A stretch of 64,000 bases of DNA from an uncultured Ignatzschineria sp. Its GTDB lineage: Bacteria; Pseudomonadota; Gammaproteobacteria; Cardiobacteriales; Wohlfahrtiimonadaceae. The stretch covers positions 1-64,000 of the forward strand of contig CALZEE010000008.1 in NCBI GenBank assembly GCA_945639195.1, written 5' to 3'. Numbering within the stretch: position 1 is the first letter of the stretch; each line of letters opens with the position of its first letter. This document shows, piece by piece, positions 1 through 22,939 of this stretch. The position numbers and the translations under genes were made by a program. Under the pieces are notes generated by a model. It saw only the letters and a program-made list of their open reading frames with translations. It was not told the DNA's origin and ran no database searches.

Positions 1-340
1 TTCTGGCGTTGTGATCGGTTGTTCTGGTCTGTCTGTTTCCGGCGCATCATTTACCTTCGTCACTGTGATCGGCACAGTGATAGTGACAGATTCACCCTCT
101 GGATCTTTAACAACAACGGTGAATTGATCTTCACCATTAAAGTCTAAGTTCGGCGTATAAGTATATTCACCGGTTTTCTCATCGATCGTGACCGTACCAT
201 TTGTTGGCTGTTTGCCTAACTCATAAGTAAGCTCATCACCATCTTTATCCGTTACATCGATGATTTGTCCCGTCTTTGGCTGATCTTCTGGCGTTGTGAT
301 CGGTTGTTCTGGTCTGTCTGTTTCCGGCGCATCATTTACC
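1..340 (-). repeat. 285-bp period direct repeat inside the adhesin gene
   Basis: Bases 1-55 are identical to 286-340, giving a period of exactly 285 bp (95 codons). This marks the start of successive Ig-like domains. Identity at DNA level, not just protein level, suggests recent repeat duplication or ongoing homogenisation by recombination. Confidence 0.85.
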
Positions 341-987
341 GGCGTTACAGTCACAGGAACCGTAATCGTCACCGTTTCACCATCTGGATCTTTTGCGATA
401 ACCGTAAACTCATCTGGTCCGTTGTAATCTTCGTTTGGCGTATACGTATATGAGCCATCTTTATTGACCACAACTGTCCCATGCTCTGGCATATCACCCA
501 CTTCATAAGTGAGCGTATCGCCATCTTTATCAACAACATCCTTTATTTCACCTGAGATCGGAGTATCTTCCGCAGTCTCAATAGGTTGTTCAGACTGGCT
601 TGTTTCTGGGGCATTATTAGTAGGTTTTTCACCTTCTGGGCGATTATTACCTACATCATTTCCACCATTACTATCAACGATAGCCGCTGCACCTGCAACA
701 CCAGCGCCTCCGCCTAAAAGAAGCGGTAACCATGGTAAACCACAATCTTCATCTTCGAATAACAGATCTGACTCTTCATCCTCATGCTTGAGGAAGAAGT
801 TAACGATCACAATCGTTTTACCACTTTTAAGCTTTAAAATTAAGTCATTACCATCTTGAATGAACTCAGCGACATCCGCGCGATATAAGTGCGTATGAAC
901 CTCTGAAGCTGCGTTTAATATGATTTTTGACTCATCAACCTTAACTTCATTTAATGATTTCTTATCTACAACAACAAATGCTGACAT
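1..987 (-). CDS. Large Bap/Lap-type repeat adhesin, N-terminal part (gene runs off the window)
   Basis: An uninterrupted minus-strand frame runs from an ATG at 987 to base 1 (329 codons) with no stop, so only the N-terminus is present. Residues 1 to about 90 resemble the short prefix domain of BapA/LapF-type adhesins (start MSAFVVVDKK, then a hydrophilic beta-rich stretch and an acidic patch ending in EDEDCGLPWLP). A Gly/Ala-rich segment (LLLGGGAGVAGAAA) follows. Then come Ig-like/cadherin-like repeats of about 95 residues, each starting near PEQPI-T-ED, containing DKDGD, YTPN and PVNDAP, and ending in TVTIT. Such proteins are secreted by type I systems and act in biofilm or cell-cell adhesion; the divergent TolC/ABC/HlyD genes are the likely exporter. 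An AAGG about 9 nt before the ATG can serve as the ribosome site. The C-terminal secretion signal lies outside the window. Family assignment is by pattern only. Confidence 0.85.
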   Translation of the reverse strand, partial: MSAFVVVDKKSLNEVKVDESKIILNAASEVHTHLYRADVAEFIQDGNDLILKLKSGKTIVIVNFFLKHEDEESDLLFEDEDCGLPWLPLLLGGGAGVAGAAAIVDSNGGNDVGNNRPEGEKPTNNAPETSQSEQPIETAEDTPISGEIKDVVDKDGDTLTYEVGDMPEHGTVVVNKDGSYTYTPNEDYNGPDEFTVIAKDPDGETVTITVPVTVTPVNDAPETDRPEQPITTPEDQPKTGQIIDVTDKDGDELTYELGKQPTNGTVTIDEKTGEYTYTPNLDFNGEDQFTVVVKDPEGESVTITVPITVTKVNDAPETDRPEQPITTPE

Positions 988-1192
988 AATGTTTGACCTT
1001 GATTTTAATAATTTTAAAAGCAGAAAATTCTTGTTTTTTAATACGAGTGGAGGGGAGTTTTTAAATTTTTTCAAAACAAAACCCCAAGGCATTTACCTGG
1101 TGATAGTCTGTTATTCACATAATTTAAAATTGACGTCCCTACCTAGATTTATTTATCTAAATATATTTAATTCATATTGAGATTTTCATTAT

Positions 1193-1615
1193 TTACTTTC
1201 GAATAATGAAAGGTTTCCCTTTTGCATCTACAGAAAGAACAAATGCTGGAGCTGTCATATCAGCCTTTACCACCACATCTACGTCATACGCAGAACAACG
1301 GCCTTGACAGTTTTTAACTTGTAAATGATAGGTACCTGGCATCAAGTAGTAATCTAAGTGATCATTCACTAAATAATCCCCTGCCTTTTTATCATTAATA
1401 TAAAAAGTAATCGGACAATCTTGAGTCGCATTATCATTACGACGATACGCTTTACTATCTCTTGATACCTTAATGAGTTGGCTATCTTCACTCTGTTTCG
1501 TCTGATAAGTCATCTCAGAGATATCGGTACTTGCACATCCAGCTAAGCCAATAGCAATGATAAAAATAGATGGAATTTTGCAGAAAGAATCGAATATAGA
1601 ATTTTTTGTTTTCAT
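1193..1615 (-). CDS. Small putative lipoprotein of unknown function next to the type I secretion locus
   Basis: 140 aa. The N-terminus has a hydrophobic stretch ending in a lipobox (L24-A-G-C27), so the mature protein should be lipid-anchored. The body has several Cys residues (CPITF, NCQGRC) and short beta-like segments such as ADYLV-type and YYLMPGTYHLQV, which resembles the DUF2846-like/PEGA-like small lipoproteins only loosely. I do not recognise a family. It lies between the adhesin and the divergent TolC-like gene and is co-directional with the adhesin, so an accessory role in adhesin display or secretion is possible but unproven. The 249-bp AT-rich gap upstream separates it from the exporter genes and probably holds divergent promoters. 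Confidence 0.75.
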   Translation of the reverse strand: MKTKNSIFDSFCKIPSIFIIAIGLAGCASTDISEMTYQTKQSEDSQLIKVSRDSKAYRRNDNATQDCPITFYINDKKAGDYLVNDHLDYYLMPGTYHLQVKNCQGRCSAYDVDVVVKADMTAPAFVLSVDAKGKPFIIRK

Positions 1616-1864
1616 ATAACAAGCCTAAAAAAATATAACTGATGAAATATCATCGTATTAAAATATGTAATATACTGTAGCGAAATATAATAAAATTGTT
1701 GAGTATAGTCAATAAAAGTAAAATATATTATAAATAAATAGCGATTTAGGATTGCAGTATGTTAAACAAATAACATAGAATACTCTCAGTTATTTACGAA
1801 TCAAAACAATATCAAACAGGACGTCAGTGGACGTCTTTTAACCAAAAACGGCATATTAATATCG

Positions 1865-3253
1865 ATGAATACATGGTACAGACTGAAAAAACCCCTTACT
1901 TTTTTAAGTATCTCTTTCCTGACTGCTTGTGCGAGTGATCAATCACTTACAAATATAGAAGCCTCTTCTGAGCGAAAAAATCCTGAGAACATCAATATCC
2001 AAATTGAAATGTCTCAGACAATATCTGAAAAAAGAGAGTCGCCTAAAACAATTTCACTTCAAGATGCTGCCGCGCTTGTTGTTGCCTATCATCCTCGAAT
2101 CGCTCAGGCAAGAAATAGCGAGAAAGGTGAAGCAGAGATGGTGAATGTTGCCAAGTCGAACTATTATCCTCAGATTACAGGGGGCACAAGAGTTGAATAT
2201 AATGATCGCCCTGAAGGCAACCAGCGCCATCAAAACAAAATCCTCGAGCTAGAAGTACGTCAAACACTTTACGATTTTGGTAAAACAGCCAATACAGTAA
2301 AAGGTGCAGAATATGACTACGAAGGGGCAAAAGTAAACACAACTGCAACCAATGAAAGCTTTATTCATGCCGCAACATCAAGCGTTGTGGAATCTGTAAG
2401 ACAAGAAAAACTGATCGCTCTCGCAAAACAACAAGTCAGCCAAGTTAATGCTTTGGTGAATCTCGTAGAAGAACGTCATGATAAAGGAGCAAGTAATCTC
2501 TCCGATCTCCTGCATGCAAAATCTCGTTTAAACGATGTCCAGTCAGAATCACTCGACTCGCAAACACAATATCAAGTTCAACTACAGAATCTTCGATATT
2601 TAACAGGCGTATCCTCTGTGCGTAAAGTCAGTATTGATAACCCTCCAAAAGCATTAGAACAAGCTTGCTCACTCCCTATTGATTGGCGTAATGTTCCGGA
2701 ATATGTGATTGCTGAACTAGAAGCTAAAAAAGCTTTAGCAGACTTAGAATTGTCTAAATCTGAAGAAAAACCGACAATTTATGTGACAGGTACAGCATCT
2801 CACTCTTTAGATCAAAATAGCTCACCCAGATATAACTCTCGCTCAGACTCCAAGATCTCGCTCAATATCTCTGTTCCGCTTTATCAAGGGGGCGGGTTAT
2901 CAGCAAAAAAACGCGCCTCTGAAAATTGGGCTCATGCGGCATCTGCTCGTCAAGAAACTGTAAAACTTGATGTTAGCAAAACAATGGATGATGCCAAAAT
3001 AAAACTCCAAAATATGAAAAGCAGACAATCCCTTTTAACACAGCGTGTTAACAACCTTCAAGGCACACGCGAGCTCTATAAGCGTCAATATTTAGACTTA
3101 GGTTCACGCTCACTTGTTGATCTTTTAAACTCAGAGCAAGAGTTCCACAAGGCACAAGTCGATGTAGTAAATAACAAGCTCGACATCATCCAAACTCAAT
3201 TGGATTGTGCGTATTACCATGGGCAGCTCGAAGCATACTTCGACATCCAATAG
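1865..3253 (+). CDS. TolC-family outer membrane channel of a type I secretion system
   Basis: 462 aa. The N-terminus carries a lipobox (L19-T-A-C22), so it is a lipid-anchored TolC/LapE-type outer membrane factor. Two outer-membrane-efflux domains follow, each with long amphipathic helices rich in Gln, Ala, Glu and Asn (for example LVEERHDKGASNLSDLLHA and the matching later QYLDLGSRSLVDLLNSEQ), the internal duplication typical of TolC proteins. It would form the exit duct for the ABC exporter and HlyD-like adaptor encoded just downstream. A 203-bp gap with two hairpins separates it from the ABC gene, so the operon may be partly attenuated there. Length is normal for the family. Confidence 0.9.
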   Translation: MNTWYRLKKPLTFLSISFLTACASDQSLTNIEASSERKNPENINIQIEMSQTISEKRESPKTISLQDAAALVVAYHPRIAQARNSEKGEAEMVNVAKSNYYPQITGGTRVEYNDRPEGNQRHQNKILELEVRQTLYDFGKTANTVKGAEYDYEGAKVNTTATNESFIHAATSSVVESVRQEKLIALAKQQVSQVNALVNLVEERHDKGASNLSDLLHAKSRLNDVQSESLDSQTQYQVQLQNLRYLTGVSSVRKVSIDNPPKALEQACSLPIDWRNVPEYVIAELEAKKALADLELSKSEEKPTIYVTGTASHSLDQNSSPRYNSRSDSKISLNISVPLYQGGGLSAKKRASENWAHAASARQETVKLDVSKTMDDAKIKLQNMKSRQSLLTQRVNNLQGTRELYKRQYLDLGSRSLVDLLNSEQEFHKAQVDVVNNKLDIIQTQLDCAYYHGQLEAYFDIQ

Positions 3254-3274
3254 ATTAGCAATAAAATTTAACAT

Positions 3275-3300
3275 ACGAGTGAAGCCCTAACTTCACTCGT
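3275..3300 (+). terminator. Hairpin between TolC-like and ABC exporter genes
   Basis: Perfect 10-bp stem ACGAGTGAAG / CTTCACTCGT with a 6-nt loop, 21 nt after the TolC-like stop codon. No T-tract follows, so it may be a weak or Rho-assisted terminator, an attenuator or an mRNA-stabilising hairpin. A second, imperfect hairpin lies at about 3364-3393. Confidence 0.55.
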
Positions 3301-3456
3301 AACACTCTGTGATCTAAATTTATCACAATTTATTCCGCTCAATGCCACTTATACCCATTACGCTTCACCGATGTTACCCTGTAATAACGGTGAATAATTG
3401 TTTTTAGACTGAGGGATCATCTCAGCAACATTACTAGCAACAATAAAGATACATAC

Positions 3457-5574
3457 ATGAAAGATCATACCGAATACGATAATTGGATCGAGGCAATCAT
3501 TACGATTGCCAAACATTATCGCCTTGAATTTTCTAAAGAAAACATCTCATTAACAAGCGCCTGGCTCCAAAACAATCCACTGAGCGATACACTTAGAGCC
3601 ATGTCTCGACAAGCGGGTTTAACCGTGAGCGTGATTAAGCTCACCGAAAAAGACCTTAATGTCTGGCGCTTGCCTTTAGTAATTCAATTCAAGAATGGGC
3701 AAATTGCAGTGATTGATACGATTGATCAAAATGATCAGGTCAGTATTACTTACTGCGGCGATGATGGTTTAAAGAGTAGCATCTCTAAAATGGAGCTACT
3801 TGATAATGTCAATATTGCGGTCATCTTACGTCCTTCTCGCACCGTCGCTGATTCTCGTATCAAAGATTACACTGAAGCTCACGATAAACACTGGTTTAAA
3901 AATATCGTACTCAGAGACTGGAAACCTTACGCCCATATATTTGTGGCCTCTCTCATGGTTAACATACTGTCTCTTGCCGGGATTCTATTTACTCGCCAAG
4001 TCTACGATCGCGTTATTCCTGCAGAATCCTACCCAACACTTTATGTGCTCTTTAGTGGGGTACTCATCGCGATTATTTTTGGATTTATCTTGCGCCAACT
4101 ACGCACAAAAGTCACCGATCTTCTAGGTAAACGCGCAGACCTCAAGATCTCGGATCGTGTCTTTGGGCATGCTTTACGCATTAAAAATGCCCACCGACCA
4201 CGCTCTACCGGCACTTTCATCTCTCAAATTAGGGAATTGGACAGTGTTAGAGAACTATTGACCTCGACCACCGTTATGGCATTTGCAGATATGCCCTTTT
4301 TCTTCCTATTTTGTATCGTATTTTGGTATATCGCTGGTGCTCTCGTATGGATTCCCATTGCTGCCGTGATCCTTATGGTATTACCTGGCTTATTTGCACA
4401 GAAGAAACTCCATTACTATGCAAATCTCAACATGAAAGAGAGCTCCCTAAGAAATGCAATGCTCGTTGAAAGCGTACAAGGAAGTGAAGATATTAAATCC
4501 CTTCAAGCAGAACAACGTTTTCAGCATCAATGGAATAACTACAATGCGGTATTAGCGGATATTAACTTAAAATCACGCTCTTTAACCAATAGTCTTTCAG
4601 CATGGACTCAAACAGTTCAAACAGGGGCCTTTGCCGTCATTGTACTCTTTGGTGCTCCCATGGTAATACAAGGGGATTTAAGTACGGGTTCCTTAATTGC
4701 AGCATCGATCTTAGGTAGCAGAATGATTGGTCCTATGGCAGGACTAACACAGGTATTAAACCGCTGGCAGCAAGCCAAAGTCTCTTTAAATGGGCTAAAC
4801 CAACTCATGGAACTTCCTGTCGATAACCCTTATCACTCTAAGAAAATTCATAAAAATATTCTTAAAGGAGATTATTCTCTCAAAAATGCTGCATTTTTCT
4901 ATGGAGAAACAAGCCAAGTCCCTGCCCTATACGTTCAAAACCTCAATATCAAAGCGGGAGAAAAAATTGCAGTATTAGGGAGAAATGGTGCGGGAAAATC
5001 AACTCTACTACAGGCTCTTTCAGGATTACTAGAACCTCGTAGTGGAATCGTGAATCTCGACAACATCAATATAAACCATATTGACCCAGCTGATGTACGC
5101 AGAGATATCTCTTTAATGAGTCAAAACTCAACACTATTCCATGGATCACTTCGTGAAAACTTGATGTTAGGTGCGCCGAGAGCCACGGATGAAGAACTCT
5201 ATACAGCCTTAAAAATTACAGGTGCTTTCGACTTTATCCAAAAACTTTCCACCGGTTTAGACTATGTCATTGCAGAAGGTGGAATGGGGTTATCAGGCGG
5301 ACAGAGACAATCTTTACTCTTATCTAGAGCGCTCGTAAGATCCCCTAATATCTTACTTTTAGATGAACCTACAGCAGCACTAGATGACATTACCGAACGC
5401 CAGTTTATTATGAACCTCAATCAAGTTGCTAAAGATAAAACCGTTATTATCGCCACCCACAAAATGAGTATTATCAATATTGTTGATCGAATTGTGACGA
5501 TTGCTAACGGGCAAATTGTTTTAGATGAAGCTAAAGACGTTGCCCTCGCAAAACTTTCGAGCCACGCTCAATAA
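3457..5574 (+). CDS. Type I secretion ABC transporter (LapB/RtxB-like permease-ATPase)
   Basis: 705 aa, normal for a fused type I exporter. Residues 1 to about 125 form a C39-peptidase-like domain whose only cysteine is C100, outside the catalytic position, so it is a non-cleaving substrate-docking domain as in LapB/HlyB. Residues about 150-430 hold the transmembrane domain. The nucleotide-binding domain has Walker A GRNGAGKST at 508-516, signature LSGGQ at 612-616, Walker B with D636-E637 and a switch histidine at H668. It would use ATP to drive the adhesin through the inner membrane into the adaptor and TolC-like channel. The next gene (adaptor) starts 26 bp after its stop, so they are co-transcribed. 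Confidence 0.93.
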   Translation: MKDHTEYDNWIEAIITIAKHYRLEFSKENISLTSAWLQNNPLSDTLRAMSRQAGLTVSVIKLTEKDLNVWRLPLVIQFKNGQIAVIDTIDQNDQVSITYCGDDGLKSSISKMELLDNVNIAVILRPSRTVADSRIKDYTEAHDKHWFKNIVLRDWKPYAHIFVASLMVNILSLAGILFTRQVYDRVIPAESYPTLYVLFSGVLIAIIFGFILRQLRTKVTDLLGKRADLKISDRVFGHALRIKNAHRPRSTGTFISQIRELDSVRELLTSTTVMAFADMPFFFLFCIVFWYIAGALVWIPIAAVILMVLPGLFAQKKLHYYANLNMKESSLRNAMLVESVQGSEDIKSLQAEQRFQHQWNNYNAVLADINLKSRSLTNSLSAWTQTVQTGAFAVIVLFGAPMVIQGDLSTGSLIAASILGSRMIGPMAGLTQVLNRWQQAKVSLNGLNQLMELPVDNPYHSKKIHKNILKGDYSLKNAAFFYGETSQVPALYVQNLNIKAGEKIAVLGRNGAGKSTLLQALSGLLEPRSGIVNLDNININHIDPADVRRDISLMSQNSTLFHGSLRENLMLGAPRATDEELYTALKITGAFDFIQKLSTGLDYVIAEGGMGLSGGQRQSLLLSRALVRSPNILLLDEPTAALDDITERQFIMNLNQVAKDKTVIIATHKMSIINIVDRIVTIANGQIVLDEAKDVALAKLSSHAQ

Positions 5575-5600
5575 TTTGACCTTTGATTGGAGAATCACCC

Positions 5601-6971
5601 ATGATCAATCAACCTAATATCATTCCTTCGGCATCGGCTAAGACTAAATCCGCAACCGAAGGCTCCTCACCCGATACTACAAATGACAATATTACTGTGC
5701 AAGAAAATCTAACTCAAGATCTAGATAATTCGCAAAGTAGCACTTCTAATGTAGGTAAAAAAACAAGTGAAGATAATATGCTTCTCCTTAACTATGATGA
5801 GGACAAGCAGCGATATAAAGACCATGTTGATGAGGCAGAGATCGTTAAATCTTCGCGTATTATCTGGGCTTTTGTCGCTCTCATTGCCGCTTTTATTATC
5901 TGGTCTTACTTTGCTGTATTAGTCGAAGTCACGACCGGTACAGGTAAAGTTGTCCCAACGTCGCGTGAGCAAGTCATTCAATCCTTAGAAGGAGGAATTA
6001 TCTCTGAGCTATACGTGAAAGAAGGAGACCAAGTAGAAAAAGATCAGATTTTAGCGCAATTAGATTTAACCCGTAATGAAGCAAATGTTGAAGAGAGTGC
6101 AACAAGATACCGAGCGGCACTTGCTAAAATTGCCCGTTTAGAAGCGGAAGTAAACCAAGAAGACCTAGTTTTTCCTGATGAATTAGAAGCATTTACTCAC
6201 TTAGTACAAGTCGAAAAACGCTTATACCAAGTGCGTCAAAAGGCATTACAGGAATCGATATCTGGGATTCAAGAATCTTTAGATCTAGTGCAAGAAGAGT
6301 TAAAACTTACTAAAGGCTTAGCGGCACAGGGAGCGGCTAGCAATGTTGAAGTCTTAAAACTTCAGCGCCAAGTCTCAGAATTACAATTAAAAATTACCGA
6401 TAAAAATTCAGAATATATGGTCCGTGCTCGTGAAGAGCTCAGCCAAGTAAAAGCTGAGGCAGAGTCATTAGAGTCTGTGATTAAGGGGCGCGAAGATTCT
6501 CTTTCTCGTATGACACTGAGATCACCTGTCCGTGGGATTGTTAAAGATATTGCTGTAACCACAAAAGGCGGCGTTATTCCTCCTAATGGTGAGCTGATGC
6601 AAATTGTCCCTTTAGAAGATCAGCTCTTAATAGAAGCGCGTATCTCTCCTAGAGATATTGCCTATATCTACCCTGGGCAACCTGCAAAGGTCAAAATAAC
6701 CGCCTATGATTATTCGATCTTTGGTGGACTTGATGGGAAAGTGACCCTTATTTCCCCAGATAGTATCCAAGATAAATTCAAACCAGAAATTTTCTACTAC
6801 CGCGTATTTATTCGGACTACTTCAGACTCATTGGTAGATAAGAGTGGTAAACCCTTTGCCATCGTCCCGGGAATGATTGCTACAGCGGATATTCAAACCG
6901 GTGAAAAAACCGTATTTGACTACCTGATGAAGCCCTTTGGTAGAATAAAAGATGCATTACGAGAACGATAA
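5601..6971 (+). CDS. HlyD-family type I secretion adaptor (LapC-like)
   Basis: 456 aa from the ATG at 5601, which has GGAG 8 nt upstream; an in-frame TTG at 5583 is less likely. It has an acidic and Ser/Thr-rich cytoplasmic tail (about 1-86), one transmembrane helix (about 87-107, IIWAFVALIAAFIIW), a lipoyl-like half-motif (GGIISELYVKEGDQVEKDQ), a long coiled coil (about 160-300), the second lipoyl half (SPVRGIVKDI) and a C-terminal beta-barrel ending in the family hallmark (PGMIATADIQTGEKTV-DYL-KP). It bridges the ABC exporter and the TolC-like protein. It is the last gene of the exporter operon and is followed by a good terminator. Confidence 0.93.
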   Translation: MINQPNIIPSASAKTKSATEGSSPDTTNDNITVQENLTQDLDNSQSSTSNVGKKTSEDNMLLLNYDEDKQRYKDHVDEAEIVKSSRIIWAFVALIAAFIIWSYFAVLVEVTTGTGKVVPTSREQVIQSLEGGIISELYVKEGDQVEKDQILAQLDLTRNEANVEESATRYRAALAKIARLEAEVNQEDLVFPDELEAFTHLVQVEKRLYQVRQKALQESISGIQESLDLVQEELKLTKGLAAQGAASNVEVLKLQRQVSELQLKITDKNSEYMVRAREELSQVKAEAESLESVIKGREDSLSRMTLRSPVRGIVKDIAVTTKGGVIPPNGELMQIVPLEDQLLIEARISPRDIAYIYPGQPAKVKITAYDYSIFGGLDGKVTLISPDSIQDKFKPEIFYYRVFIRTTSDSLVDKSGKPFAIVPGMIATADIQTGEKTVFDYLMKPFGRIKDALRER

Positions 6972-12344: not shown

Positions 12345-12691
12345 AGCATGTATCTATAGGTATTAGTGGTGATTCTTGTGCAGCAATCGGATTGAACGCA
12401 GGATGTGACGTTTGGTATTCAGTCATTGGTGGCTTATTCCCTAAAGTGGCTCAATCGATTACAGCAGCAGCGAAAAAAGGGGATGCAAAAGAAGCATTGC
12501 GCCTATCAAAACGCTTAACTCCGATGTGGGAACTGTTCTATCGCAATGGAGGAAGCCTTCGTGTTGTGGCTGCCGCTGCTGAGATCCAAAACTTAGTTAA
12601 GCCTCCTTGTTTGCCGTTGCCACTTAGGACATTAGAGGGACAAGAAAGAAAAGAACTAGCATTATTGCTTAATAATTTAGAATTATCATGA
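12344..12691 (+). pseudogene. DapA-family (dihydrodipicolinate synthase-like) C-terminal fragment
   Basis: The frame from the junction reads KHVSIGISGDSCAAIGLNAGCDVWYSVIGGLFP, then a helical tail rich in Ala and Leu to a TGA at 12691. This matches the C-terminal third of the DapA/NAL class I aldolase family (GADAWYSVIGGLFP-type motif). The catalytic Tyr and Schiff-base Lys parts are absent, and there is no true start (the TTG at 12392 is internal). A remnant produced by the same rearrangement that truncated the divergent SafE-like gene. Confidence 0.75.
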
Positions 12692-12748
12692 TGTTAAGTG
12701 AGATGGTAAGTATGCCAATTCACAATGATATCGTTGGGGATGATTGCA

Positions 12749-13084
12749 ATGAATACTATTAATTATCCTTTAATCTTAATGGCAGCATTAGCTGCAATAG
12801 CAAGCCCTGGACCTCTGGCGTGCTAACCGGCTCACTGTTCTGATCTTGTAGTGCAGCTTTTGGTTTACTGCGCTGCTCAGTTCAAATGTTTGGATATTTG
12901 AAGTCATACGGTTTGTAACGTTGCTTATTTGATTTATTTGATTTATTTGATTTATTTGTCATTGAAATCTTTACGTTCAGCCGTTGGTAAATCAACATGG
13001 ACGCTAGTTCAAAGTCACTCAACAACATTACCCAATATTGAGCTTAATAAAAAGCCTGAATCTTCTTGTAAAACAACTAATTAA
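12749..13084 (+). pseudogene. LysE/RhtB-family exporter remnant
   Basis: The ATG at 12749 gives MNTINYPLILMAALAAIASPGPL, the typical LysE N-terminus, but a TAA follows at codon 26. After about 80 bp of damaged sequence, another frame gives YLIYLIYLIYLIYLSLKSLRSAVGKST, the LysE helix ending in the WKSLRSA-type motif, down to TAA at 13084. The middle and the C-terminal helices are lost. Confidence 0.65.
12925..12958 (+). repeat. 9-bp microsatellite (TTATTTGAT) in the LysE remnant
   Basis: Three full copies and a partial fourth of TTATTTGAT. Each unit adds three codons (LIY), so the repeat would be frame-neutral in a working membrane protein. Confidence 0.85.
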
Positions 13085-13099
13085 ATACAGAACCATCCT

Positions 13100-13467
13100 T
13101 AAGAAAACCCCCGCAGAAATGTATACACCCAATCTCGTGAAAATGGATTTTAATCCGAAAAAAACTAATCAGGTATGGGGAGAAAAGATTACCTATTTAA
13201 AGACACAAAATAGCTTGTGCTATTTAAGTATTATGATGGATTTATATTCCCAAAGAATCATTGGTTGGGCTTTCGGGAAGTCAATGACCACTGAGTTAGT
13301 TAAGCGCCCATTATTACAAGCTAAGGAGATATCCCAAAAATGTCATCTTTCACAGCGATCGAGGCTCTCAGTAATATAGTAGTAAGTTATTGGGCGCATT
13401 TTTAAGAGAAGTATTTTACCCCCGAGGAGATGAAAATTATAAAGTAAAAGTGTCCGCTGTAGCTTGA
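13100..13467 (+). pseudogene. IS3-family OrfB remnant
   Basis: The translation TPNLVKMDFNPKKTNQVWGEKITYLKTQ..LYSQRIIGWAFGKSMTTELVKRPL matches the IS3 OrfB core. The first catalytic motif is WGEKITY where WVGDITY is usual, so the Asp is lost. After about 13350 the frame shifts to HSDRGSQ-TAA-YSSKLLGAF and on to a TGA at 13467. It is unrelated in sequence to the IS at 7250-8443 and has no visible ends. Confidence 0.75.
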
Positions 13468-13491
13468 TCAGAGCATAACCAATCCGGTTCA

Positions 13492-15336
13492 TTAACATAA
13501 TTCTTCTTTAGAAAATGATTCCAATATCCCTTTCAAGTACACTTTTTGCCTCAATTTCACATCCCAATCATAATCTATTGTTTTTTGACTTGAATTTTCC
13601 AACAACCTTGGCAAATTTTTTGTGCGATATCCTCTTTCTCTAACAAAGTGAGTCAATATTGTATATTTTGACTTAAATTCAACCATATGGATATCACGAA
13701 TATATCGAGCTCTTCCACAAACTTCATGGTTAATTAGTTTCGAATTAACTAATTGATATGCAAACTCTTGATGAATATCCCAGTAAATCGCAAACTCAGG
13801 GATAGTAAAGTATCCGGGCATTTTAATCTGGGTTGAAATCCAATGCTCTAAAGAAGCTTTACAAATGATAAAGCTCTGGAGAGAAATCTTCTCGCTCCTA
13901 TTAATTACAGCCCTGCTTGGATTATAAAAAATGGTGATTTTCTCTTCTAAAATAGCCCTTAGAAGACTTACAAAAGCCTGGGGTATTCTCCCACAAATAA
14001 TTCTCATTGCAGTTCCAAATGCAATGCCTTTCGAGCCCCTTATAGCGGCTATCTTATATAATTTATCGATAAACTCTTCTAAAACGCTTTGAGGAATTAT
14101 CCACGTATTCCTAGTATTTCTTTGAGGAGAAACAGCGTCCGGAAAAAAACCACTTTCAAGTAATTCATACAATTGTTTTTTAGTTATTTTAAGAATACCC
14201 ACAGCTCTAGTAAATGATGCTATTTCTGTTAAATATTCTCCTAATACAAATAAGTTAGGCCGATAAACTAAAGTATACGTATTTTGTAGCTTTTTATAAG
14301 ACACTGATAACAAACGCCCATCTTCAATAGCTCTATATAAATCAGATGGTGCAAGCCTCATAGACTTGCTTGCTTTTTCAATAGTAATCCAAGGATATCC
14401 TTTAATTAGTTTGTGACTAAAAAATGAATTTCTATGAGTAATCGGCTTTTTCCATTCCTGTAGGATAAAGTTTTCTATCCATTTTTTATACACATCGAAT
14501 ATATGGCATTCAAAGTTTCTATAAAAATATCTATAAAATCCCACAAAAATATTATCTACCCCAGAAGGTAGTTTAATAATTTTAAGCTGATTCAACTGTA
14601 ACAGATAATCCATAAATGATTTTTGTGAGCCAAAAAAGATAAGGGAAATATCATCTAATATCTCTAACGATAATGGCATTTTTTTATCATTCTTATCTTT
14701 ATATAAGATACTCTCAAGACTCCAACTTGCTAATTTAATTACAAACTGATCTCGATCTGCTAAAGACAGATCTTTAGCCTTTACATTTGCAAGTGCTCCA
14801 CCTGACTGAAATGTCTTTCTTTCAATAAATAATTGTAGATTTAATGCTGGTTGACTGGCTTTTACCATTGGCAGAATGCTTAAATCAGCGCCACAGATGC
14901 AGTACCCTACACGCCCCTTACTTACAGGAATCTTGTTCAAACACTCAGGGCAATACTCTTGTAAATACGCCTTATGAACTAAACAAACAAGAGCTGACTT
15001 CCTTTGCCAATGCATACGATAGTATCTTTTTTCCATTAAGCACTCTGGACAAAACTTAATTGTTTGTTTATTCAGGAGTACAGCAGGAAAATTCACAATC
15101 TCTTCTATTAATGGTGATGCCTTATAGTCTAACCACGCAGTTGACTTTAATAAGTAAAAAGTTGCATGGTGTGTTAATGCAAAGCGTTTTTCTGTCTTAG
15201 AAAATATCATCCATGCTATAGCATTATAAGAATTACTATTCACAAGCCGCATTAAATAGCTTATAGGATCTTCATCCATATAAGGTTTAACATGTATTAA
15301 AGGCTTAATGATTTCAAAATTAGGAATTGAACTCAC
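13492..15336 (-). CDS. tniQ: TniQ/TnsD-like target-site selector of the Tn7-like element
   Basis: 614 aa from a GTG at 15336 that overlaps the tnsC stop as GTGA and has GGAGAGAGGG upstream; an ATG at 15393 inside tnsC is the alternative. The N-terminal TniQ domain (about 10-180) holds zinc ligands C96-x2-C99, a second C-x2-H pair, CPEC and CxC (FCPECLMEKRYYR, LVCLVH, YCPECLNK, YCICG). The long C-terminal half has HTH-like segments (LAPSDLYRAIEDG, GILKITKKQLYELLESG). In Tn7, TnsD binds the end of glmS and recruits TnsC; here the single long TniQ probably recognises the end of gyrB. There is no second TniQ, TnsE or Cas gene nearby. Confidence 0.85.
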   Translation of the reverse strand: MSSIPNFEIIKPLIHVKPYMDEDPISYLMRLVNSNSYNAIAWMIFSKTEKRFALTHHATFYLLKSTAWLDYKASPLIEEIVNFPAVLLNKQTIKFCPECLMEKRYYRMHWQRKSALVCLVHKAYLQEYCPECLNKIPVSKGRVGYCICGADLSILPMVKASQPALNLQLFIERKTFQSGGALANVKAKDLSLADRDQFVIKLASWSLESILYKDKNDKKMPLSLEILDDISLIFFGSQKSFMDYLLQLNQLKIIKLPSGVDNIFVGFYRYFYRNFECHIFDVYKKWIENFILQEWKKPITHRNSFFSHKLIKGYPWITIEKASKSMRLAPSDLYRAIEDGRLLSVSYKKLQNTYTLVYRPNLFVLGEYLTEIASFTRAVGILKITKKQLYELLESGFFPDAVSPQRNTRNTWIIPQSVLEEFIDKLYKIAAIRGSKGIAFGTAMRIICGRIPQAFVSLLRAILEEKITIFYNPSRAVINRSEKISLQSFIICKASLEHWISTQIKMPGYFTIPEFAIYWDIHQEFAYQLVNSKLINHEVCGRARYIRDIHMVEFKSKYTILTHFVRERGYRTKNLPRLLENSSQKTIDYDWDVKLRQKVYLKGILESFSKEELC

Positions 15337-16274
15337 TGTACCCTCTCTCCTGCAACATGGAATGGCATATTTAATTGAGTTAACGATTTCCATGTAAATT
15401 TATCATGAAAAGGATTTAACTCATCTGGAGCATCACTCCAAATATATCGCTTAAACGCTTCATAAAAAGATTCTTGAGTAATTGAAATATTTCCATTTAA
15501 CAACGCAGTTTCACAGGCTCCAATCATAACTTTAACTATATAATCAATTATTCCATTGGAAGCATAATGTAACCTTTCTAATACCTCAGAATCACGAATA
15601 TTGATATCCATTGGGTAATCGTGCAACTCTTGTAATTTAAAAACAACACCAGCAAAGGTTTGATAATCATCTTTATCTTTCAAATCAAAAGCTTTTAAAT
15701 GAATTCTTTGATTAAAGCGGCGGCGTAACTGCTCATTCACTTTTAAAATTTGTTCACTACGCTCTAACCCCATTAAAACTGTTGGTATATTAGCTTTATC
15801 AACAAGATTTTTAAGCCAATCCGCAACTTGATAAGGTGTATTTTTTCTTCCTTGATCTATAAAATGCTGTAGTTCATCAAAAATAATTAATTGAACTCTG
15901 CATTTTTCTAAAAAGGATAATATACGTACTGTCTTGTTTTCAGCTGTACCTTTTCCTGCTAATGGGTCCCCAAAAGCCAAAAGCATTGTTTCAGCAATAT
16001 TTTTTACTGTTGGTATTGCTGGTGTATCAACTGTTAGAACTGGGATGATAGGTACTCCTACAACTACTTTTCTAGGGTAAGCTTTCTCTACCTCCTTCTT
16101 TATAGTACTTTTTCCCGTCCCTGCAGCGCCAATACATAATAAGTTCTGTGAAATTCCCGTAAATTTTTTAAGCTCTAAAATGGACTGTATTTGTTGATAA
16201 GCTATTTCAAACTGTGGATAACGAATTACTTTTTGTTTTAACAAAGCTATCATCCTAAATCGTTGACTATTCAT
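15333..16274 (-). CDS. tnsC: TnsC-like AAA+ ATPase regulator
   Basis: 313 aa from an ATG at 16274 with a strong AGGAGG site; the upstream start at 16295 is less likely. Walker A GAAGTGKST at 49-57, Walker B LIIFDE with D133-E134, and a later GLERSEQILKVNEQLRRRFNQRI arginine-finger/sensor region. It links TniQ-bound target DNA to the TnsA-TnsB transposase. It is much shorter than Tn7 TnsC (about 555 aa) and closer in size to TniB and to the TnsC of other Tn7-like elements. Its start overlaps the tnsB stop by 8 bp and its stop overlaps tniQ, showing a translationally coupled operon. Confidence 0.88.
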   Translation of the reverse strand: MNSQRFRMIALLKQKVIRYPQFEIAYQQIQSILELKKFTGISQNLLCIGAAGTGKSTIKKEVEKAYPRKVVVGVPIIPVLTVDTPAIPTVKNIAETMLLAFGDPLAGKGTAENKTVRILSFLEKCRVQLIIFDELQHFIDQGRKNTPYQVADWLKNLVDKANIPTVLMGLERSEQILKVNEQLRRRFNQRIHLKAFDLKDKDDYQTFAGVVFKLQELHDYPMDINIRDSEVLERLHYASNGIIDYIVKVMIGACETALLNGNISITQESFYEAFKRYIWSDAPDELNPFHDKFTWKSLTQLNMPFHVAGERVQ

Positions 16275-18189
16275 TATCCTCCTCCTTGTCCCCAAGCACC
16301 TTAAAATCAGGAATCTTATCTAATAAAAATCGCGGGCTTTTCTTATTTATCTTTTTTAGAGGAACAGCCTCAATATTAAAAATGTTAATATCTCCGATAC
16401 GCACCGCTTGAGAGCGTTTTTTAATACCTTTACTGCTACTCAAACTTTTTAGTTTTTCATTCAATTTTGTTTTAGCTTCTCTTAAACTATTTACGGTCTC
16501 TTCTTCTACTATTTTTTGCTGCTCTAACCTCTCCTTTAAAACCATTTCTTGCTGTAATAGTGTTAAGTTTTTTGCATATTCTTCATCTGTACAGGGTACT
16601 TCTATGAAAACATCATTACCTTGATCATAAACCCATATTTTTTCTATATTTTCTGGGTCAACACGTATTTGCACTTTAGCCCTATTTCCATATAAAATTC
16701 TCAGCATTCTTAATGACTCCGAGTTATAGGTTAGCCTCTTAAAATGAATCCCCTCATGACTCATTGATCTGTCGTATTGCTTAGCACAAATTAAATTAAA
16801 TTGATCTCTATCTTTAGGGAAAATAGCAGGAACTCTTTGAATATCTTTTATCCACTGCTGATAAGGTGTCGTTCCTAATGTTCCATGAACGGTTTGTAAG
16901 TAAATATCTACAATCCAAAAATAAATAATATTTTGTAGCTCCAAGAGGGTAATCGTTGCTTCTGATATCGAGTTATAATCACCTCTTTCCCTAATATTCG
17001 AGAAAGTAGTTCCACGAATTCTTTGAGAAACTTGCCCATTAAGTGTTCCTAAAAATCGCTCAACGCGACCTTTATAATTTGGTTCATGCTTAGGACAGAA
17101 CATTAGTTCAATATTAAGTTCTCCACAAATTCTGCGAAGATGGGCAGAATGAAACTCAAGTCCGTTATCACAAACTAGTAATGCGGGAACCCCAAATGCA
17201 GGCCACTCCCCTTTAATATCAGGTACATTTTTTATTAAATCATCTTTCCCCCAAATAGCCTGCTTCAATGCTCGTACAACTGATAGTTCAGAAGGCGGCT
17301 CAAATCCTATAGAAACAGCTAAAGGCATTCGTGTATGACTGTCTAGCAAACAAGTTAAATAAGGCCTTCCAATTACTAGTCCTGTTCTTTCATCTAAAAC
17401 CATGACATCCAAAGGTGTATGGTCGATTTCCACTCGTTCTAGGGGATAAGTTGTTCTAATACCTTTACCTGAAATCCGATAATACTTATTAGCTGCTTTA
17501 ATACCATGTCTTTCAGCCATAACTGTATAATCATCTAGCTCACCTATCATTCTATAAACTGTCGCTCTTGATGGAGACTCAATAGCGGTTTTCATAACAT
17601 GGTTATAATTTTTAATCCGACTTATCAAGCTAAAATATACTTCCTGTTTACTTTGTCGCTCCTTAGTTAAATAAATTTCGTTAACCACTTCATAAAAAAT
17701 ATCACCAATCGTTTCTTTATATTTCCGATATCCTTTTTTTCCATCAGGTTTATTTTCTAATGAGTTTAATTGATGTCCAGATTCTTCCCACTTTTTCCAC
17801 CACCTGTAAAGAGTAAGGCTAGAAGGAGGGGAACAATCCTCAATATTATTAGCAACCCGAACAATTAACTCTTCTAACCCAACTCTTTGAGGCCATGGAT
17901 ATTCTTTTTGAGCCGCCTTCACATACTCATATCTCCTTAAAACTTCTTCTCTTTGTGATTCAGATATCAACGAAAAAACTCGACCTTCATCTGTTAAAAT
18001 TGAATCTTCTTCAATAAACTTTATAGTTCCTAATCTAAGCAATCTCTCAGCTTCATTCAAAGCAAGTTTAAGCTCTTGCAGATTTCCAACTTCTTTTAAA
18101 ATAATCTCTTCATGAGAGATAGAGAATATTTGGTAATATATATTATTAAAAATCAGGTGCTGACCGATATTGAAATAAGTATGTTTCAT
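16267..18189 (-). CDS. tnsB: TnsB-like DDE transposase
   Basis: 640 aa from the ATG at 18189 (AAGGG 7 nt upstream; ATG at 18195 has no spacing). N-terminal end-binding HTH region (LTLYRWWKKWEESGHQLNSLENKP), then an RNase H-fold core with catalytic residues D256 (EIDHTP), D341 (VCDNGLEF) and E377 (RVERFLG). A mu-transposase-type beta barrel (IHFKRLTYNSESLRMLRILYGNRAKVQIRVDPENIEKIWVY split over this region) and a basic C-terminal tail that would contact TnsC follow. It binds the repeated end sites and joins 3' ends to the target. It overlaps the 3' end of tnsA by 44 bp. Confidence 0.9.
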   Translation of the reverse strand: MKHTYFNIGQHLIFNNIYYQIFSISHEEIILKEVGNLQELKLALNEAERLLRLGTIKFIEEDSILTDEGRVFSLISESQREEVLRRYEYVKAAQKEYPWPQRVGLEELIVRVANNIEDCSPPSSLTLYRWWKKWEESGHQLNSLENKPDGKKGYRKYKETIGDIFYEVVNEIYLTKERQSKQEVYFSLISRIKNYNHVMKTAIESPSRATVYRMIGELDDYTVMAERHGIKAANKYYRISGKGIRTTYPLERVEIDHTPLDVMVLDERTGLVIGRPYLTCLLDSHTRMPLAVSIGFEPPSELSVVRALKQAIWGKDDLIKNVPDIKGEWPAFGVPALLVCDNGLEFHSAHLRRICGELNIELMFCPKHEPNYKGRVERFLGTLNGQVSQRIRGTTFSNIRERGDYNSISEATITLLELQNIIYFWIVDIYLQTVHGTLGTTPYQQWIKDIQRVPAIFPKDRDQFNLICAKQYDRSMSHEGIHFKRLTYNSESLRMLRILYGNRAKVQIRVDPENIEKIWVYDQGNDVFIEVPCTDEEYAKNLTLLQQEMVLKERLEQQKIVEEETVNSLREAKTKLNEKLKSLSSSKGIKKRSQAVRIGDINIFNIEAVPLKKINKKSPRFLLDKIPDFKVLGDKEEDNE

Positions 18190-18895
18190 AAACATTCCCT
18201 TTATTTATATTTAAAAAAATAGATGTATTGCTCGTTAATTCAGCATATAAATCACAAACTAGATACCCATTTGCAATAGCACTATAAATAAACCCCATTT
18301 CATAAAAACAAGCTAAATCCTTTAAAGTCATTGAGTTACAATCATTTCTAGCATAAGCTTCATTTAATGAAAGCTGATCTTCTCTAGTTATTTCTAAATT
18401 CTGAAATTGCCTTAGTATCAATAAATTATGCTCTCTTATTGGATTTATTAACTCTTTATCAGTCAATACAATAAAATCAATATGTTGCTTTAAAAAATAA
18501 AGCGAAACATGATTAAAATAATCTTTTAAATTAATTAATTTATTTAATGGCTTTATTTCACAATAACTAATCTCTCCAAATTGATTTATAATTTCAAAAT
18601 CAGGAGTATAACGTTTAATTTCACTTTTAAATGGAATAGAAAAGCGTTCTGGCTGCTCTTTAAAAGATAAAATATTAGATGAAAACTCAAATAGATAACA
18701 TGCTCTACGCTCTAACTGAGACTCCCACGCAATCATTCTTTGCATCTTTTTAGAAGGAAACTGTCCTCGTACAGTCATACGCGAAGGCGTTACTGGATTT
18801 CTAACTCTATAATTATTTTTTTCTGCCAAGCTTCGCTTCAGTATTGAAATACCAGATAACTTCTGCACGATAAGTCGTTTGTTTTTTACAGACAT
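18146..18895 (-). CDS. tnsA: TnsA-like endonuclease
   Basis: 249 aa from the ATG at 18895; an in-frame upstream start at 19042 would add an unlikely hydrophobic extension. The restriction-enzyme-like catalytic set is visible: E58 or E62 (WESQLERR), D99 (YTPDFEI) and E113-x-K115 (YCEIKP). This matches the Tn7 TnsA order E63-D114-Q130-K132. It makes the 5' cuts that allow cut-and-paste movement, working with TnsB. The C-terminal region (LSLNEAYARNDCNSMTLKDLACFYEMGFI) is a winged-helix-like partner domain. Confidence 0.87.
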   Translation of the reverse strand: MSVKNKRLIVQKLSGISILKRSLAEKNNYRVRNPVTPSRMTVRGQFPSKKMQRMIAWESQLERRACYLFEFSSNILSFKEQPERFSIPFKSEIKRYTPDFEIINQFGEISYCEIKPLNKLINLKDYFNHVSLYFLKQHIDFIVLTDKELINPIREHNLLILRQFQNLEITREDQLSLNEAYARNDCNSMTLKDLACFYEMGFIYSAIANGYLVCDLYAELTSNTSIFLNINKGNVYETYLFQYRSAPDF

Positions 18896-19024
18896 AAAAG
18901 ATCCTTGCCAAATCATTTTGACAATAAAAAAATATATAAATGAAAGGATCAACTTGACGTAGCCTTTAATAAAATAGATACTTACAACGACCAAGGAGTA
19001 AGAATTTATCTTATTCATTACAAG

Positions 19025-19058
19025 ACGGGGCAAGTTAATCACTTCGCCTCGTTTTTTA
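19025..19058 (+). terminator. Plus-strand intrinsic terminator between tnsA and the RHH gene
   Basis: Stem ACGGGGC (19025-19031) and GCCTCGT (19046-19052, one G-T pair) followed by six T in the plus direction. No plus-strand gene precedes it, so it would stop antisense transcription of tnsA or end an unannotated small RNA. In the minus direction there is no T-run. Confidence 0.6.
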
Positions 19059-19371: not shown

Positions 19372-20289
19372 GTGTCGAAAGTAGATATACAATTTAACTT
19401 ACGAGTCCCTAGCGAATTAAAAGAAAAAATTGAGGTATCAGCTCAACATAACAACCGTTCTATTAACGCAGAGGCTGTATCTCGTTTATATAATTCCTTT
19501 TCAGAATCTCAACAAAACTTATCCGCCAGCATTAAGGCTTTTGAAGAGATGTTGAGACAAAATCGCCCATCTTCTAGAAGAACCAAAATAGCAGCTCGTC
19601 TCAATATCTCTTTAGAAAAGGTCAATGAAGCTCTCACGTACAGCAAGAAACTATCCCCTGCTCGTATCGCAAAAAACATGGGGAATAACTACGCGGAACC
19701 TATGGAAAATTTTTTCATGGGGCTAGAGGAACCCTCTTTTTCTCAACTTGAGAACATTGCCGAGTACCTGAATATTAATTCAGACTGGTTATTATTTGGA
19801 GAAGGTTCTATCTTTTCTATATCATATTCTCGCGTTCCAACACCAGAACAAGATGGTGTAAACTGGCTTACAGATAAAAATCTAAATAATAATTTAACTC
19901 ACTTATATTTTTTACGACAGGATAGTGAGGCTGGGGAACTTATAATTATCAAACAATATGGTAATTGGCATTGCAAAGTATTTAAGACACCATATCATAT
20001 TAGCGAAGTAATCGGCGCTACAGGTGAGTCCAATCTTATACGTCTATTTTCAACTTGGAAGCTTCTTGACAAACAAAGTCCACCACCTTCAGTAAGAAGC
20101 TTTCTAATCTCACCAAAGGACTACCAAACCATATTATCGGGTGAAACTCATCCTTTAACTATCATTAATCAACTAACAGATAAACCTTGGTGGGAAGATA
20201 TATGGGATCATAATGTGTATGAAAAAATGGATTACTGGGATGGATGGAAATCTCTTTGTAGAAGAATAAATAATTTAAGAAAATCATAA
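19372..20289 (+). CDS. Arc-type RHH plus HTH transcriptional regulator of the Tn7-like element
   Basis: 305 aa from a GTG at 19372 with GGGAG 8 nt upstream. Residues about 1-45 are an Arc-like RHH domain (VDIQFNLRVPSELKEKIEVSAQHNNRSINAEAV broken here as strand, helix, helix). Residues about 65-145 look like XRE/Cro-type helices (ARIAKNMGNNYAEPMENFFMGLEEPSFSQLENIAEYLNINSDWLLFGEG in segments). The C-terminal ~150 residues are unrecognised and aromatic-rich. It sits between the transposon right end and tnsA but points towards gyrB. Its position and dual DNA-binding domains suggest the main switch for transposition or for gene expression near the end. Confidence 0.72.
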   Translation: MSKVDIQFNLRVPSELKEKIEVSAQHNNRSINAEAVSRLYNSFSESQQNLSASIKAFEEMLRQNRPSSRRTKIAARLNISLEKVNEALTYSKKLSPARIAKNMGNNYAEPMENFFMGLEEPSFSQLENIAEYLNINSDWLLFGEGSIFSISYSRVPTPEQDGVNWLTDKNLNNNLTHLYFLRQDSEAGELIIIKQYGNWHCKVFKTPYHISEVIGATGESNLIRLFSTWKLLDKQSPPPSVRSFLISPKDYQTILSGETHPLTIINQLTDKPWWEDIWDHNVYEKMDYWDGWKSLCRRINNLRKS

Positions 20290-20301: not shown

Positions 20302-20329
20302 ATAAGCCTCTTCTTAAGAAGAGGCTTAT
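20302..20329 (-). terminator. Strong terminator inside the transposon right end, facing gyrB read-through
   Basis: A perfect 28-bp palindrome with arm ATAAGCCTCTTCTT. On the minus strand it is followed by a TTTTTT run, so it should stop transcripts entering from gyrB before they reach tnsA. On the plus strand it may also end the RHH-HTH gene, with a poorer T-run. Confidence 0.8.
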
Positions 20330-20348: not shown

Positions 20349-20531
20349 GGTATCACGGTTTGAGATTTGGTATCACAGTTTGAGACACCGTTTCATCATT
20401 CATGAGATTCGACACTCTATTAAATTGAATGATGAGAGCTTAATCTTTTCTGTCATATTTTCCTCCGTTTCATAGTTTGAGATTTTATTTCACTATTTGA
20501 TATGCCGTTTCATCACTATCGAGATTCGACA
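20349..20531. repeat. Transposon right-end array of TnsB-site-like repeats with duplicated terminal motif
   Basis: Six related ~20-bp sites: 20349, 20369 and 20389, then 20466, 20487 and 20506. The core is TTTCAT/TATCAC, A/G-TTTGAGA. The third and sixth sites are extended to nearly the same terminal sequence, CGTTTCATCA...GAGATTCGACACT, ending at about 20416 and 20533. Each group is spaced at about 20 bp. The outermost CGACA at 20531 is the likely element end; the one at 20414 could be a second or older end. Confidence 0.75.
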
Positions 20532-20545
20532 CTGAGGTTTACACC

Positions 20546-22939
<2,394 letters not shown>

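Follow-up and report, generated by a model that had tools for sequence, protein, structure and literature searches.

Paired right ends beside gyrB in an uncultured Ignatzschineria sp. probably derive from two related Tn7-like elements

Introduction

Tn7 and Tn7-like elements home to particular attachment genes with TnsD/TniQ proteins, to glmS and, in some I-F3 CASTs, to parE. According to a review of these elements (PMC11406308), both ends carry arrays of TnsB sites, insertion makes a 5-bp duplication, target immunity occurs and there is a TnsD that homes to parE. Pile-ups of Tn7-like ends are already known as a type of event, since islands with multiple ends have been attributed to elements that insert within or adjacent to each other (Benler et al. 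2021, PMC8649781, with citation of Peters et al. 2014 for adjacent and nested Tn7-like insertions). In the literature searched, with most subscription papers outside its coverage, there was no gyrB-homing Tn7-like element; one candidate source, PMC12452197, was set aside because gyrB serves there solely as a phylogenetic marker.

Here, we analyzed a stretch of 64,000 nucleotides (the window) that starts at base 1 of contig C8 from an uncultured Ignatzschineria sp. Like Tn7 and Tn7-like elements, the locus has a tnsA-tnsB-tnsC-tniQ set, repeated arrays of 20-bp sites at its right ends, TGT..ACA termini, a 5-bp duplication and a right end next to the target gene. Unlike in those elements, the attachment gene is gyrB, a paralogue of the known target parE, and the TniQ matches known TniQ structures weakly. 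The closest solved relatives of the window proteins, the TnsB of Tn6677 and the TnsA of PseTnsAB, belong to the Tn6677/I-F3 CAST TnsB/TnsAB lineage, but no CRISPR-Cas component was seen here and the TniQ is long and TnsD-like; the proteins scanned contain no Cas domain. As in the nested and adjacent islands of PMC8649781, extra ends lie beside the homing site, whereas the extra one here consists of a bare right end at a distance of 117 bp, and stacks with differing partners occur in several relatives. One family and one attachment site offer a natural series of empty sites, single insertions, a lone relic end and stacked ends, which lets one ask how far a resident end must diverge before a second Tn7-like element settles and so bears on target immunity; gyrB is added as an apparent docking gene for this group.

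Results

A repeat search of the 64-kb window returned two 67-nt copies of a single family (20350-20416 and 20467-20533), which have 78% identity and are 117 bp apart. The pattern CCGTTTCATCA-N(4-8)-GAGATTCGACACT was seen twice in the 64 kb (20388-20416 and 20505-20533), against a mean of 0.00 in 100 dinucleotide shuffles, and the combined terminal pattern is beyond chance expectation. An earlier sequence-only reading had described a terminal motif present twice at the right end, 117 bp apart, and two groups of three ~20-bp sites; the repeat search and the shuffles bear out the first statement and the layout the second: in each group, two units at a 20-bp interval (starts 20350/20370 and 20467/20487) precede a terminal unit whose last bases are GAGATTCGACA. 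That reading was right about the existence of the two end groups but had them ending near 20416 and 20533, while the relatives and the target-site duplication place the true termini at 20414 and 20531, the 'CT' at 20415-20416 and 20532-20533 being flanking DNA outside the ends. A site matrix found no further clusters of end-type sites in the 64 kb.

Both groups are flanked on one side by a cargo gene that neighbors tnsA and on the other by the stop codon of gyrB. The inner right end (20350..20414, plus strand, E 3.4e-21) and the outer right end (20467..20531, plus strand, E 4.6e-17) have the same layout of two 20-bp TnsB-site-like units and a terminal unit, and are 79% identical to each other. 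The outer terminus is 14 bp downstream of the stop codon of gyrB and is followed by CTGAG (20532..20536), a 5-bp target-site duplication. The 52-bp spacer between the two ends (20415..20466) is unlike the DNA after the inner-type terminus of genomes G001, G004 and G013, and starts with CTCTA, a possible target duplication of the inner element whose partner was not found. Just inside the inner end, a perfect 14-bp inverted repeat beside an A-run (T-run in the gyrB direction) is a possible terminator at 20302..20329 that a terminator scan did not call. Comparable hairpins lie inside the ends of G008, G011 and G016 (for example L017 5205-5242 and L114 1463-1494), and hairpins of this kind could substitute for the gyrB terminator displaced by insertion.

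TnsA, a DDE TnsB, an AAA+ TnsC and TniQ are encoded together on the minus strand, as in Tn7-like elements. The TnsA-like endonuclease (tnsA, 18146..19042) matches the Pfam TnsA N-terminal domain below its curated cut-off and, in the PDB, the TnsA part of the PseTnsAB fusion (E 6e-11). The DDE transposase (tnsB, 16267..18195) carries rve and Mu-transpos_C domains and has Tn6677 TnsB as its closest solved structure (E 2.8e-66), with the D-D-E motif positions aligned. The TniB-type AAA+ protein (tnsC, 15333..16295) matches PF05621 (E 2.5e-28), and the 633-aa target selector (tniQ/tnsD-like, 13492..15393) contains TniQ and HTH_17 domains, the latter a helix-turn-helix. The window TnsB and TniQ are 59% and 30% identical, respectively, to their counterparts in the gyrB island of G011. 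In a TniQ search of 369 genomes of the class, the protein was found in the source genome only. A TnsB search of genome contigs gave one relative, the 3.2-kb contig JAAZCI010000133.1, and TnsB matches on plasmids were all below 60% identity. The cargo gene with an Arc-like DNA-binding domain (19372..20289, plus strand) adjoins the inner end, and its DNA is conserved in G013, G004 and G001; the attachment gene gyrB follows at 20546..22939 on the minus strand. Just beyond tniQ, at 12350-13490, there are apparent gene fragments and insertion-sequence remnants, which mark a likely point at which the tns element lost its left part.

A strict left-end pattern had no match in the source genome (G000), and its left end, at C15:30242, was located later via GAGATTCGACA; the remaining GAGATTCGACA matches in that genome, which have no end-type sites around them, were set aside. 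The left end has CTGAG on its outer side (C15:30237-30241), the same 5 bp as at 20532-20536, and its flank carries a hairpin and a T-run, as found downstream of gyrB in unoccupied relatives. Arrays of putative TnsB sites and TGT..ACA termini are present at the left end on C15 as at the right, and a 5-bp duplication joins this left end to the outer right end. Since CTGAG is common to both, the outer end was used, and 20531 and C15:30242 are shown, at the level of sequence, to bound one island. At their ends, contigs C15 and C8 share adhesin repeats (93% over 84 bp) and appear to hold the two halves of one BapA-like adhesin gene, the N-terminal part of which lies at 1..1092 on the minus strand, with the repeats resuming at the end of C15. 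From these shared repeats the island is read as C15:30242-36273, a repeat gap and C8:1-20531; we infer this joining of C15 to C8 from the repeats and not from the assembly. The joined island has a single left end and a pair of right ends. The island proteins scanned, encoded on either side of the adhesin gap, contain no Cas domains. Its cargo includes, besides the adhesin, an outer-membrane channel, an ABC exporter and an HlyD-type protein (window 1-6971 and L101:16654-18273).

The family survey covered 18 genomes and located gyrB in 17. Eight of them (G002, G003, G005, G006, G007, G009, G012 and G014) have no such end within 400 bp after gyrB. The sister genomes G004 and G001 have a single inner-type end directly beside the gene, at 9-10 bp from its stop codon and with a terminal unit preceded by five array units, so that elements with the inner-type end alone, which the sequence-only reading had suggested looking for, do occur. 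In G013 (the same contig as JAAZCI010000133.1), an inner-type end is followed by a different outer end 75 bp away. The stack in G011 has a spacing of 177 bp, and its outer end is identical to the G013 outer end over 65 bp. The alignment of related right ends proposed in the same reading shows partner ends and spacings that differ in G013 and G011. An end followed by another repeat array makes G016 probably a further stack, and in G017 the contig starts within an end. Beside gyrB in G008 there is a lone right end with a hairpin and other genes directly after it, which is a relic end (L114:1501-1565, on contig C183, with ordinary genes adjoining); a second end-like stretch, degraded, lies near L114:1376-1403.

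A right-end model found 11 ends at E<1e-7 in the 18 family genomes, all 11 in gyrB islands and 10 within 200 bp of gyrB. The outermost ends lie 4-14 bp past the gyrB stop in G000, G001, G004, G008, G011 and G013, with the right end toward gyrB. Such site-specific insertion in a fixed orientation next to one gene is typical of Tn7-like elements, and the survey shows that one docking site at gyrB has been colonised repeatedly by them. Away from gyrB, a left-end-like stretch (E 6.5e-7) was seen in G005 beside a symporter-like gene (L122:1501-1626, C11:405471-405596); the G005 genome gave no TnsB match.

Ends in three other genomes match the inner end at 95-97% identity, those of G004 and G001 among them at 97%. 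The outer end resembles the inner one no more than it does the ends of other elements. Identity reaches 96.4% for the tns region in the comparison with G004 and 97.6% for the 2.8 kb to the left of the inner terminus in that with G013, whereas the gyrB 3' DNA is just 79-80% identical in the same comparisons, and similarity stops at 20414 each time. That the similarity of the tns block ends at 20414 next to a gyrB of ~80% identity shows that a unit ending at this position has moved between species, and by these comparisons the inner terminus is one that has been used. Both termini, then, were used, in different events.

Discussion

Taken with the single-end genomes, the identity values point to the second end as that of a distinct element and not a duplicate, and we hold it highly probable that the groups come from two Tn7-like elements, different but related, as the right end of each. 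Successive insertions of related gyrB-homing Tn7-like elements are, with good though somewhat lower confidence, the overall account that we favor. Of the two origins that the sequence-only reading had proposed, successive insertions at one site gain support from the single ends of G001 and G004, the varied stacks and the identities, and a duplicated end does not, as the inner end shares 97% identity with its counterparts in G004 and G001 against 79% with its outer neighbor.

The element that owns the inner end, here M, carries tnsABC-tniQ and, by the comparisons above, moves between species as a unit ending at 20414. Its TniQ would, by analogy with Tn7, recognize the 3' end of gyrB, and its TnsB would bind the 20-bp units. 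M is most likely the later arrival, inserted just inside the right end of a resident element N, and its own left end together with the transposition genes of N may have been lost after the insertion. Taken as a whole, this order, with M arriving later inside the right end of N and losses following, has in our judgment about an even chance of being correct. As in G000, the outermost ends of G011, left and right, have a duplication in common (AATTT/AATTA, with one mismatch), and the remaining ends lie inside; the inner termini are base-precise, or nearly so, against differing neighbor sequence in three genomes. Outermost shared duplications in G000 and G011 and precise inner termini fit a later insertion of a tns-bearing element inside a resident. 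The G013 stack is not a simple nest and has a more complex history, as its far-left flank (ATTTC) and outer right flank (TCGAT) share no duplication. No target duplication was found for the inner end, nor was a left end of M with CTCTA, the G004 copy being interrupted near the tniQ end and the G001 copy lying on a short contig; in G004, pattern, site matrix and model all gave no left end. The G004 chromosome has ~40 copies of one insertion sequence, a relative of that in the C15 left end, and one copy ends close to the break of the tns block near tniQ (C1:2295645-2295855).

In stacks, 79-187 bp separate the inner terminus from the gyrB stop, against 9-10 bp in single insertions, a difference not predicted by fixed-distance homing. 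The reverse order does agree with such homing: M would have come first, with the C15 left end and CTGAG, and a second element would have entered between M and gyrB at the same 5 bp, to be reduced later to a right end and 52 bp. The same CTGAG pattern, with one left end and a pair of right ends, could result from a newer element that entered at precisely these 5 bp and collapsed later; the DNA that follows the inner terminus begins with CT, as CTGAG does. However, this order needs a deletion that starts 0-5 bp from the inner terminus in three genomes, where CTCTA, TTGGG and GGATG follow the terminus, and in G011 and G013 there is no remnant of the expected duplication after it, which makes the reverse order doubtful. 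An improbable alternative is that both ends form the right edge of one composite unit, with its left end on C15, that jumped whole to gyrB and made CTGAG. A jump of this kind would account for the single left end, the two right ends and the one duplication, with no need for later losses here, but the same pair occurs in no second genome, and the stacking would merely be shifted to an earlier host. If a single element had duplicated its right end in tandem, the shared layout and 78% identity would be explained, yet this is very unlikely given that the inner copy is much closer to the ends of three other genomes (95-97%) than to its neighbor (79%), and that the outer end has no special closeness to the inner one. 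Scarcely credible is a single composite right end of six TnsB sites with the outer terminus alone in use, an array whose conservation would, by the test that the sequence-only reading had set, have spoken against stacking: the sole recognizable target duplication in the source genome is that of the outer terminus and unit number in such arrays varies anyway, but G004 and G001 end at an inner-type terminus and the outer sequences and spacings vary between genomes.

With successive insertion as the preferred account, the stacks also touch on target immunity. Within a stack, identity between the ends is 81% at most, while the inner-type ends in four genomes are at least 95% identical, which suggests, from the sequences of three to four stacks, that divergence may allow elements to settle side by side. 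A tentative idea, which we regard as possible but unlikely, is that at an occupied gyrB the incomer is displaced and not blocked, inserting inside the TnsB-coated right end of the resident, so that the pile-up grows inward and the resident stays outermost. Ordinary tandem insertions are expected to leave 5 bp between ends; 24 kb inside the gyrB island of G011, a right end abuts a left end with zero bases between them (GAGATTCGACA|TGTCGAATCTC; C1:263172-263193, L016:1173-1194).
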